DNA from: a virus
Length of the DNA: 27,821 nucleotides
Strand: one strand, 5' to 3'
IMG/VR virus record: IMGVR_UViG_3300046007_002511
Location: 1-27,821 of that record
In this document: piece after piece, positions 4,368 through 25,998 of the stretch
Numbering within the stretch: the first letter of the stretch is position 1
Layout: each line of letters opens with the position of its first letter
Program-made: the position numbers and the translations under genes
The notes under the pieces: generated by a model
Database searches by the model: none
The model's input: the letters and a program-made list of their open reading frames with translations, nothing else
What the model was told of the DNA's origin: nothing

Positions 4368-5798
4368 TTAAGGATTTGGGTTTGCAAACAATGCCCGTTC
4401 TTCTGGGGTCATCACATTCCAAACGGCTTGATCTACGTTAGAAGGTCTTCCTGGCGCAGCGGGCTGTTGTGAATTTTTGGCCTTTAGTACTCTTGATTCA
4501 GGTAAGTTTTGGAACTGAGGGAAACGCTCAAAATCTTCTCCGCGTGTCTTTTCATATCCATCTTTAATCCTGTTAATTGCTCCAATTGCTTGATTTTCGA
4601 TAAGGTCAATCTGTTCAAGCAATGGGCCTTTGCCTTTTACTGGATCAATGTTCGCAATTTGATTTGCGAGAATTTCCCATTCTTTGGTTGCTATTGACCC
4701 GATTGAACCGCCCATTGACGCAACTGCTTTTCCCAAGGCGGTAATCTTACCTTTTAAATTGGCGAGTCTTGTTTCTGCTTGTGCTGCTTGACCGCCAGGC
4801 ATTGAAGGAAGTTTACCTAAATAACCAGTTGATGCTTCCAAGCCGGGCGCAGTTTTTACGGCATTAATAGACTCAAGCAGATCATCCATCTGACTAATGG
4901 TCGTAGAAGCGGCTTTATAGTCCTTGCCGACATCCCCACGCAACTTGATTTCTTGTTGTTGCGTTAGAGGCTTCTGAGCAGGCGGAACAGGCTTAAGTTC
5001 TTGACCTGCGGCTTTTCTGGCGGCCTCTTGCTCTTTAGCAGCAACTTCACGCTCTCTCAATGAAAGATTTTTATTGGTGGCTTCTAGTTGGCCTTGCTGA
5101 TAGATCGTGGGTGTCTTATCTGAATAATTAGTAATAGCCTTCTGATACAAGGCGTGCTCAGGCGACCCTGGCGCATACTTTGCTTGCTCATTTAGCAATT
5201 TTGCCAGCCCTGTTTGGCCTTGCTCTTGCTGACGCAGCATATCCCTGTGGGATTTCATGCCCATCTTTTGTTCTTCAAGGTAATATTTGAATTCAGTTGG
5301 CCCTGCTGCGACAACGTCCTTAAACTTTTTTAATGCTTGTTCTTTAGTAATACCATTGGCTTCCAAATATTGCTTAAGAATTTTGTTCTCATACGTCTTG
5401 TCAATGTAGCCAGAATATTCTTCTGGATAGTGAATTTTACCCAACGCTCTTTCATTAAGCTCAAGTTCCGCTTTAACAACGTCTTGATTTGCTTTCGTGG
5501 CTTTACTCTCAGCCTCTGTGCGTTCAGATTGGGCTTTCAACATCGCCAAACCTGGTTTTCCATATCTCATTACATTAGACTGTGCTTCTGATGAACTGAG
5601 GTCAGGATTTCCGGCAAGGTAGTTTCTCAAGCCTTCTTGTTCCTGAAGGCCTCGTGCGTACTCCTGAGACTGCATGCGTGCAAGCTCATTGGCGTACTTA
5701 GCGCCTTGGAGCTTCATCACATTTGCTTCGATGTTCTGAGGGGACTCCAGCTCGTAGGTTGGCTTGAAGCCAAGCGCAATTCGTGGATCAATAGGCAT
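4368..5798 (-). CDS. Internal virion / DNA ejection protein (476 aa, gp20-like position)
   Basis: Middle gene of the three-gene ejection block. It starts MPIDPRIALGFKPTYELESP and then becomes long, charged and helical with coiled-coil character (about 25-270; many Gln, Glu, Lys, Ala, as in EARKAAGQELKP). The C-terminal half includes a helical segment near DLLESINAVKTAPG and ends in a Pro-rich tail. No known domain is recognised. Composition and order (after a gp7-like gene, before the 563-aa gene) suggest the role of P22 gp20, a minor protein injected with the DNA. The ribosome-binding signal is weak. Confidence 0.6.
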   Translation of the reverse strand: MPIDPRIALGFKPTYELESPQNIEANVMKLQGAKYANELARMQSQEYARGLQEQEGLRNYLAGNPDLSSSEAQSNVMRYGKPGLAMLKAQSERTEAESKATKANQDVVKAELELNERALGKIHYPEEYSGYIDKTYENKILKQYLEANGITKEQALKKFKDVVAAGPTEFKYYLEEQKMGMKSHRDMLRQQEQGQTGLAKLLNEQAKYAPGSPEHALYQKAITNYSDKTPTIYQQGQLEATNKNLSLREREVAAKEQEAARKAAGQELKPVPPAQKPLTQQQEIKLRGDVGKDYKAASTTISQMDDLLESINAVKTAPGLEASTGYLGKLPSMPGGQAAQAETRLANLKGKITALGKAVASMGGSIGSIATKEWEILANQIANIDPVKGKGPLLEQIDLIENQAIGAINRIKDGYEKTRGEDFERFPQFQNLPESRVLKAKNSQQPAAPGRPSNVDQAVWNVMTPEERALFANPNP

Positions 5799-6818: not shown

Positions 6819-7154
6819 TTAAGACACTTCCCGCCCACTAACGCGGATATTGATCGATGCCGCAGTACCGGCAATGGTCGAGATGAACCCACCAGGATTG
6901 AGCACTTGGCCAACCAGCTCAGGGAAGGTGTACACCTCGGCAGGTTGCAGCGTTTTGGTCTTGGAAATCAAGTTTTGATTCCCTGCGGTATCGCCATTGG
7001 TCACCAGATTAACACTGATCGTTGCAGCCGTTGCGCTGTAGTTGGTCGCAGTGAACTTATCAATGATGGTGGTGACATTTACCGCAGTGTACTGCGTTGT
7101 CTGTGAGGCCGCCGCAATGACGGCAGGTACTAGGTTTTTTACGGTGACGGTCAA
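6819..7154 (-). CDS. Small beta-rich virion protein with TTG start (111 aa)
   Basis: The first codon is TTG (7152-7154), supported by AGGAG six nt upstream; no ATG fits. The sequence is rich in Thr, Val, Ala and Asn (MTVTVKNLVPAVIAAASQ; later NYSATAATISVNLVTNGD), a composition typical of beta-sandwich structural proteins. The C-terminus reads like a closing beta strand (SINIRVSGREVS). It lies between tail-type genes and the ejection block, so it is probably a minor virion component. No named family is recognised. Confidence 0.7.
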   Translation of the reverse strand: MTVTVKNLVPAVIAAASQTTQYTAVNVTTIIDKFTATNYSATAATISVNLVTNGDTAGNQNLISKTKTLQPAEVYTFPELVGQVLNPGGFISTIAGTAASINIRVSGREVS

Positions 7155-23678: not shown

Positions 23679-23707
23679 ACTATAGCAAACGAACAGTGTG
23701 TTGTCAA
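23679..23707 (-). promoter_or_regulatory. Near-consensus sigma70 promoter facing terL
   Basis: Minus strand: TTGACA (23707-23702), spacer of 17 nt, TATAGT (23684-23679). This matches 6/6 and 5/6 consensus bases. Transcription would start near 23672 and run through the 46-aa gene toward terL and the virion operon. Confidence 0.75.
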
Positions 23708-24857: not shown

Positions 24858-24882
24858 AAAAGGCCCTCATGGGCCTTTTTTT
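24858..24882. terminator. Bidirectional rho-independent terminator
   Basis: GGCCC-TCAT-GGGCC (24862-24875) is flanked by AAAA before and TTTTTTT after. It ends the plus-strand island (seven T) and, read the other way, ends the terS transcript (four T). The terS stop codon overlaps its outer edge. Confidence 0.85.
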
Positions 24883-25360
24883 ACGTCTCCCCCTGCCCTG
24901 ACCCATCCTCGATCTGCCGAGGCTCCACGAGCTTCGCATCGATGATGTCCGAAGCAATGAGCCGAGCCTTCGCCGCCTCCAGTGCATCAGTAATACTAAT
25001 ACCAGTATGCACTATCTCGTGCTTCTGAGTTTCTGCCCATCTCATTTGAGTTTTAGTCCACCAGATAAGTGACCCAGTATCCCCGGCCATTGCCTTATCA
25101 AATAGAGTCTTACCTATTTTCCCATTTGCTTTGGCCCGGCCCAGCTCCAATTCTCTTTTGAAGTGAGTCCGCAAGGTATCGATGTGAATACCATCTCTCA
25201 CCATGGCCGCAATACTCTCTTGCTGCAATCCAAACCCCGAAAGTTTCTCGACCATCTCGCGTTCTTCATCGGTCGGACAAAGCGCAGGCCCACCAGCTCC
25301 AGGCCTCGCACCACCCCACCCAAACTTTTCTTGTTTCGGAGTTTCAAAATCTTCATCCAT
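24881..25360 (-). CDS. terS: Putative terminase small subunit (159 aa)
   Basis: Recognises phage DNA for packaging. The N-terminus has the flexible FGWGGARPGAGGPA motif, then a helix-turn-helix type region (EEREMVEKLSGFGLQQESIA to HIDTLRTHFKRELELG, about 33-74), then an amphipathic helix pair with IGKTLFDKAMAGDTGSLI and WWTKTQMRWAE. This order is typical of small terminase-like phage proteins. GGGAG lies 7 nt upstream of the start. Unlike most phages, it does not directly precede terL. It ends against a bidirectional terminator, so it is not in one transcript with terL. Could instead be a related HTH regulator. Confidence 0.7.
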   Translation of the reverse strand: MDEDFETPKQEKFGWGGARPGAGGPALCPTDEEREMVEKLSGFGLQQESIAAMVRDGIHIDTLRTHFKRELELGRAKANGKIGKTLFDKAMAGDTGSLIWWTKTQMRWAETQKHEIVHTGISITDALEAAKARLIASDIIDAKLVEPRQIEDGSGQGET

Positions 25361-25380: not shown

Positions 25381-25695
25381 TTAAAGTTTGTGACGAATCT
25401 TAGCGATATCTGGCATATCGTCTGAGCATCCATCTTTGTACTCATCAAGTTCGGACAACACGTGATGCACCACTGCTGGGTCGCACTTGTCACGAACGAT
25501 CATGTGCATGGCATTGATGAAAACCATAGTTTTACATTGTTCAAACGTGGCCTCTTGAACTTCCGTATTGCAAGCGCCCCATGACGATTCAGAAGCGCCT
25601 TTGAACAATCTCTGCCCTTGTGCTGGCCACTTCTGCAAGCCAACTCGGCCATCACCAGTCCAGATGACCATATATTCTTTAATGCTCTTGCTCAT
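25381..25695 (-). CDS. Unknown protein behind the structured leader (104 aa)
   Basis: Starts MSKSIKEYMVIWTGDGRVGL. Contains a segment rich in aromatic and Cys residues (SESSWGACNTEVQEATFEQC) and a helical C-terminus (AVVHHVLSELDEYKDG). No family is recognised. The start has only a weak GGAT signal and lies immediately after a long terminator-like RNA structure, so expression probably depends on read-through. It precedes terS by 20 nt, so both are likely controlled by the leader. Confidence 0.75.
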   Translation of the reverse strand: MSKSIKEYMVIWTGDGRVGLQKWPAQGQRLFKGASESSWGACNTEVQEATFEQCKTMVFINAMHMIVRDKCDPAVVHHVLSELDEYKDGCSDDMPDIAKIRHKL

Positions 25696-25704
25696 GTTTG
25701 ATCC

Positions 25705-25786
25705 AAAACAAAAGCCCTTGGGGACAGTCTCAGGCTTTTGGCCTGTTGGCGGACACCGAGTAGGTGCAGACTGCCCTCAAGGGCTT
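25705..25786 (-). ncRNA. Terminator-like nested RNA structure / possible attenuator
   Basis: Positions 25712-25730 and 25768-25786 are complementary over 19 bp with one G-U wobble and one mismatch. Inside the loop are two more perfect hairpins: CAGGC-TTTTG-GCCTG (25731-25745) and CACC-GAGTA-GGTG (25754-25766). On the minus strand the stem is followed by TTTTGTTTT (25713-25705). This is a rho-independent terminator with an elaborate cloverleaf-like head, ending only 10 nt before the 104-aa gene. Confidence 0.65.
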
Positions 25787-25842
25787 ACTCTAAGAACCGC
25801 CACCAAGCGGTTTGTGTGACATCTCTTATTGTCACACCTCAT
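25777..25842 (-). CDS. Possible leader peptide (21 aa)
   Basis: AGGA lies 5 nt before the ATG at 25842. The frame reads MRCDNKRCHTNRLVAVLRVS then P and TGA. The stop codon (25777-25779) falls inside the 5' arm of the terminator-like stem, so a translating ribosome would melt that arm. The NRLVAVLRVSP stretch reminds me of the RPVAxxRA motif of short Ash-family phage peptides, but the likeness is weak. Chance remains possible in such a short frame. Confidence 0.45.
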   Translation of the reverse strand: MRCDNKRCHTNRLVAVLRVSP

Positions 25843-25998
25843 CTTTTTCCTGTGACCTAAACCCCCTGTGACAAGTGTGACAGAGTTATCTGGCCCTTAG
25901 GGGCCAGTATAACAGCCTGTCACGCATTGTCAACACTTTCAGCCGCGTGACAAGCGTGACATGTCACACCATGTCACACCTGTCACACCTGTCACGCC
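25814..25998. repeat. Cluster of eleven GTGACA/TGTCAC repeats (iteron or operator array)
   Basis: Exact copies lie within units at 25814, 25830, 25867, 25875, 25918, 25945, 25954, 25962, 25972, 25981 and 25990. The last four are tandem TGTCACRCC units with 9-10 bp period. GTGTGACA-N8-TGTCACAC (25814-25837) is a perfect inverted repeat and GTGACATGTCAC (25956-25967) a 12-bp palindrome. The last copy contains the stop codon of the primase-helicase gene. This could be a replication origin for that protein or an operator array for the promoter. Confidence 0.8.
25906..25933 (-). promoter_or_regulatory. Near-consensus sigma70 promoter within the repeat cluster
   Basis: Minus strand: TTGACA (25933-25928), 16-nt spacer, TATACT (25911-25906), matching 6/6 and 5/6 consensus bases. 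Transcription would start near 25899 and give a leader of about 200 nt before the 104-aa gene. A GTGACA copy lies in the spacer, and the perfect 7-bp hairpin CTGGCCC-TTAG-GGGCCAG (25890-25907) overlaps the start point. Confidence 0.75.

Follow-up and report, generated by a model that had tools for sequence, protein, structure and literature searches.

A conserved RNA with two reciprocal pseudoknots and a terminator-like stem, found in front of genes in many different phages

In phage lambda, protein N works with boxA/boxB RNA, and the terminator is a separate element. Fluoride and ZTP riboswitches have pseudoknotted aptamers and act by terminating transcription. In phage HK022, putL lies just behind the promoter PL, and putR about 270 nt behind PR (PMC9378689). 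The HK022 put RNA is about 70 nt long and consists of two stem-loops, with no terminator of its own (PMC9378689).

The RNA described here was found in a stretch of viral DNA of 27,821 nucleotides, the whole of which is called the window below. It is 110 nt long and runs on the minus strand at 25704..25813, where it scores 113.8 bits with covariance model R1; it is also part of a 28-sequence alignment, A4. Unless noted otherwise, all positions are window positions, and all features are on the minus strand.

A sigma70-type promoter, TTGACA-16-TATACT with a TG before the -10 box, is present at 25933..25906. It is identical to the consensus at 11 of 12 positions, and it is kept in the closest relatives, L005/L006 and L024/L025. 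Transcription is expected to start near 25899. The original prediction had placed a leader of about 200 nt behind this promoter, and this is borne out, with the elements in the places given for them. There is a long stem that encloses two nested hairpins, made up of 9 + 9 bp around a single A-C mismatch. At the end of the stem there is a T-tract (TTTTGTTTT, 25713-25705), and close behind it the ATG of a 104-aa gene, at 25695. A 21-aa open frame, MRCDNKRCHTNRLVAVLRVSP (25777..25842), indeed ends within the 5’ arm of the stem, at a TGA (25779-25777).

The 203-nt leader folds with a z-score of -4.6, and the 93-nt 3’ part of it with a z-score of -4.8. None of 200 shuffles folds as well.

The 104-aa gene (25381..25695) lies directly behind the RNA. 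In the protein family search, no Pfam or PHROG family was found for its product. It is followed by terS, the small terminase subunit (24881..25360, phrog_309).

The window has two further features of note. A second near-consensus minus promoter, TTGACA-17-TATAGT, again with a TG before the -10 box, is at 23707..23679, some 430 nt before the start of terL. In addition, the short repeat GTGACA occurs in 11 copies between 25820 and 26000, overlapping the window promoter. In related phages too, a short repeat is present about ten times, at the primase gene or immediately after it, and its sequence differs between them. In the same place there is GTTGCA (10 copies) in L026, CGTAAC (10) in L010/L012/L014/L015, AGGGGC (9-11) in L007/L017 and GGTAAC (12) in L038. 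In shuffled sequences, the maximum copy number averages 2-3 and is at most 5. These repeats look like origin iterons, or like operators that change sequence from phage to phage.

Going from 5’ to 3’, the RNA starts with a hairpin, P1 (25796..25811), which is supported by covariation. It lies 5’ of the stem, and the first reading of this DNA overlooked it. The P1 loop, UUGGUG (25806-25801), is the covarying 5’ strand of a pseudoknot, PK1; in the window RNA its partner is the strand that separates the two inner hairpins. A short linker leads to GAGUA (25786..25790), the 5’ strand of a second pseudoknot, PK2, which directly abuts the 18-bp terminator stem, P2.

The 5’ arm of P2 has an outer part, beside the T-tract in the folded stem (25778..25785, from fold and covariation), and then an inner part (25768..25776, from covariation). 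Next comes hairpin P3 (25754..25766), the loop of which, UACUC (25762-25758), is the 3’ strand of PK2. P3 and both strands of PK2 were placed by alignment and pairing parse. Two nucleotides further on lies CGCCAA (25746..25751), the 3’ strand of PK1 and covarying partner of the P1 loop. Alignment A4 then gives hairpin P4 (25731..25745) and the inner 3’ arm of P2 (25722..25730). The outer 3’ arm (25720-25713) and the T-tract together make up a predicted intrinsic terminator (25705..25720, from fold and alignment A4).

The two pseudoknots are reciprocal: the P1 loop pairs with a strand immediately 3’ of P3, giving PK1, and the P3 loop pairs with a strand immediately 3’ of P1, giving PK2.

Alignment A4 holds 28 non-redundant sequences. 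Of its cells, 96.5% pair, compared to a mean of 77.4% after shuffling and roughly 34-42% when the partners are slid. There are 188 cells with changes on both sides, where shuffling yields 47 +/- 5.6, and sliding by 1-3 columns yields 33 at most. Compensatory changes occur in 28 of the 40 pairs. When mapped on a tree, the compensatory double changes number 13 in P1, 10 in PK1, 8 in outer P2, 23 in inner P2, 8 in P3, 17 in P4 and 2 in PK2. The slid controls on the tree have 0-2 double changes per helix, with up to 4 for P4.

Both pseudoknots are present in each of the 56 copies that were parsed, PK1 in eight sequence forms. PK2 varies pairwise, as GAGUA/UACUC, GGGUA/UACCC, GAAGCAA/UUGCUUC and UGUAGUA/UACUGCA; its two strands have changed together in the L075 group, in L079 and in L098. 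Because the loop length differs in these, part of the change in PK2 is missed by the column count. The independent tree events for PK2 are few (the 2 above), and inspection shows more where the loop length differs. On the sequence evidence, the RNA has two reciprocal pseudoknots, both with compensatory changes.

Relatives of the window were gathered by scans, with the primase leading to 21 viral loci and the 104-aa protein to 6. The viral collection was searched with six DNA-pattern scans, followed by scoring with covariance models R1 and R2. The RNA is found in 60 viral contigs, including the window, and in one bacterial genome of the order Burkholderiales (L098). This genome had been left out of model R1, and scores 69.4 bits with it. 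Three near-identical contigs (L039, L043 and L045) are members by pattern and sequence match alone. There is usually one copy per contig; L054 has two, which are divergent. A survey of about 800 bacterial genomes delivered one match, using a fast filter that loses weak matches.

Several candidates were rejected. Eight pattern matches in genome contigs (L067-L074) are chance-like, having no covariance-model score and neither stem nor T-tract. L047 and L049 were dropped since they have no covariance-model score, and the covariance model also rejected L087, L093 and L097, as well as 17 of the 18 matches that were new in the last pattern scan. Low-scoring matches on the opposite strand of L036, L042 and L098 come about because the P2 stem is near-palindromic, and were ignored.

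The window RNA has no match in Rfam 15 at E-values up to 10, and L098 has only sub-threshold chance matches there. Scanning 21 loci at Rfam gathering scores gave no match covering the RNA. With blastn, ten family members were compared to 50,697 phage records and 72,556 plasmid records, and none gave a match. A literature search of open-licence papers found no description of this RNA. The family is real and apparently undescribed. A strongly conserved structure shared by many different phages, with neither an Rfam entry nor a match in the phage records searched, amounts to a gap in the catalogue.

Two related phages, L028 and L033, also contain the Rfam Betaproteobacteria-1 RNA (RF02932, 103 bits), at 6892-7009 and 4830-4947 of their respective minus strands. 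In both, the new RNA is on that strand as well, about 3.5 kb away, a hint that the hosts are betaproteobacteria.

In nearly all loci the next start codon is close behind the T-tract, with a Shine-Dalgarno-like sequence in between. In a few loci, such as L036, L042 and L026, the automatic choice of start was off, and there is an obvious ATG nearer by. Replication initiators, taken as a single-linkage cluster that includes DUF1376, Lin1244_N and PHROG replication proteins, are encoded immediately downstream of the RNA in 14 copies; in another 14, a single short frame comes first. This intervening frame is often a GIY-YIG or HNH-type gene; several of the HNH assignments were made by eye only. Genes of this kind sit exactly between RNA and initiator in L059, L060, L075, L077, L081, L090 and L096, as if homing genes insert repeatedly behind this RNA.

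Other downstream genes encode ParB-like proteins, a helicase-methylase and, in L054, a putative Erf-like protein for which no Pfam match was found. In the window, the RNA precedes the 104-aa gene of no known family and terS, and not replication genes. Of the two copies in L054, the left one lies upstream of the putative recombination gene; downstream of the right one are DUF1376 and a DnaB-like helicase. These gene names were partly given by eye.

On the 5’ side, some loci have a -10-like box 6-8 nt before P1. Most have the stop codon of an unrelated, co-directional full-length gene there, mostly 8-27 nt before P1. Some of these upstream genes encode Cro/YdaS-type regulators, others RusA or VRR-NUC nucleases or MazG. 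A search for a protein family common to all loci, which would be a candidate trigger, found none; the replication initiators form the most widespread protein cluster, present in 29 of 41 loci.

PK2 lies close against P2: its 5’ strand ends 0-1 nt before P2, and in several loci it shares nucleotides with P2, for example GAGUAG/CUACUC in L089, L090 and L096, and GAAGCAA/UUGCUUC in L079. PK2 and outer P2 are thereby adjacent or overlapping, and both are supported by covariation. P3 is only about 4 bp long and sits at the far end of the 18-bp P2. By A-form geometry, a complete P2 would put the two strands of PK2 several tens of angstroms apart. Given this adjacency or overlap and the short P3, PK2 and a complete P2 should be mutually exclusive. 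PK1 and inner P2 are compatible with either state.

The median helix energies are -10.6 kcal/mol for outer P2, -11.7 for inner P2, -6.3 for PK1 and -3.4 for PK2. Outer P2 is energetically favoured under the nearest-neighbour model, so termination would be the default. The energy gap between outer P2 and PK2 also means that a strong stabiliser would be needed for read-through.

Taken together, the sequences point to a cis-acting conditional terminator, where the pseudoknotted fold would lead to read-through and the full stem to termination. We put the probability of this reading at about 0.6. Hairpins P1 and P3 would form while the RNA is being made, and interlock via PK1 and PK2. If the interlocked fold is still in place by the time the final P2 arm has been transcribed, outer P2 could not close beside the T-tract, and the polymerase would read on. 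If PK2 opens, outer P2 would close and transcription would stop. We infer that the stem terminates, that the two folds compete in the cell and that control, with whatever trigger, runs in this direction. The stabiliser of the pseudoknots might be a small molecule, a protein, or the polymerase itself. Replication initiators would be the genes held back in most phages.

The original prediction was an attenuator before the 104-aa gene, in which a ribosome on the 21-aa frame would open the stem. An attenuator-like RNA structure at this place is strongly supported, by covariation and by its occurrence in many phages; control by translation is not supported, in light of L026 and the wider family. 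The window does look like the leader-peptide attenuators of his, trp and pheA in that a short leader has a frame and a terminator. L005/L006 and L024/L025 also keep promoter, frame and stem, including the stop codon within the stem. L026 however, with a 104-aa protein that is 72% identical, has a different promoter region and retains the 3’ structure. This structure has paired changes (CAGGC/GCCTG to CAGAC/GTCTG), and its P3 loop and the strand behind P3 are identical in sequence to those of the window. The start codon of the 21-aa frame is missing and the stop is gone (TTGAGG to TTGGGG). Since L026 keeps the RNA fold without the frame, the conserved object is the RNA structure and not the peptide. 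The three alleles that do keep the frame differ by five amino-acid changes and one silent change, and no purifying selection is visible on the peptide. Leader-peptide attenuators have a conserved short frame overlapping the switch, which L026 and the other loci lack, and runs of regulatory codons, where MRCDNKRCHTNRLVAVLRVSP has no run of a single residue. In the other loci, what precedes the RNA is a -10-like box or the stop of an unrelated gene, so that a leader peptide is no part of the design. The 21-aa frame is judged incidental rather than a functional leader peptide, and attenuation by a ribosome on it is highly improbable.

There are three other explanations. The element could act in trans, as a small RNA of about 100-200 nt that premature termination releases and that serves, for instance, as a decoy or an antisense regulator of host or phage RNAs. 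The very stable fold and the defined ends, with a promoter or gene end before and a T-tract behind, would suit this. Against it, loops and single strands are taken up by covarying intramolecular pseudoknots, so that little conserved sequence stays free. Whichever gene follows, the RNA also directly precedes a ribosome-binding site, and this constant place argues for a function in cis; a role in trans is unlikely. A put-like element would be a folded RNA that attaches to the host polymerase during transcription and renders it insensitive to terminators, the RNA's own included, with no phage protein involved. In favour of this, some phages have the RNA immediately after a promoter and others after a cro-like gene, and L054 has two divergent copies; the lack of a trans-acting gene common to all loci fits a host target. 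Still, this idea is doubtful too: the RNA has neither the length of about 70 nt nor the two-stem-loop fold of putRNA, and it ends in its own terminator, which would be superfluous for an element that modifies the polymerase. Finally, the strong stem and T-tract, with termination the default state by energy, might be an unconditional terminator or insulator, with the extra folds doing no more than protect the RNA or hasten closure of the stem. A plain terminator needs neither two compensating pseudoknots nor an 18-bp stem, and it would deprive the replication genes of the transcript that runs into them, with little room for a further promoter between T-tract and next gene. This makes it less probable again.

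If the RNA is the conditional terminator proposed above, it would gate the start of phage DNA replication. Its trigger would then reveal a host or phage signal that phages read before committing to replication. It is possible, and this is a tentative suggestion, that RNA switches of a new class, built on an interlocked reciprocal double pseudoknot, gate the passage from immediate-early to replication genes in unrelated phages. They would do the work of lambda N, nut and tR without a dedicated phage protein, by sensing a host signal or the polymerase itself.

Of the known systems, putL and putR of HK022 are the nearest functional relatives. They too are cis-acting structured RNAs at the head of early operons, behind an early promoter or further inside, and may occur twice, once per divergent operon, as in L054. 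The present RNA differs in having two reciprocal pseudoknots and an integral terminator.

Fluoride and ZTP riboswitches share the logic, a pseudoknotted fold that competes with a terminator stem just before a gene. By sequence and structure, the RNA likewise appears as a conserved fold directly before a gene, ending in a predicted intrinsic terminator. Unlike riboswitches, it matches no Rfam family, and it precedes varied phage genes instead of a metabolic pathway. The likeness is one of logic, and membership in the put or riboswitch class cannot be claimed.

In place, the RNA resembles nutR/tR1 and nutL/tL1 of lambda, coming after cro-like or immediate-early genes and before replication or recombination genes. 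The two copies in L054 match the places of tL1 and tR1. The difference with lambda is that no shared protein was found, and that here the terminator and the control fold are one RNA.
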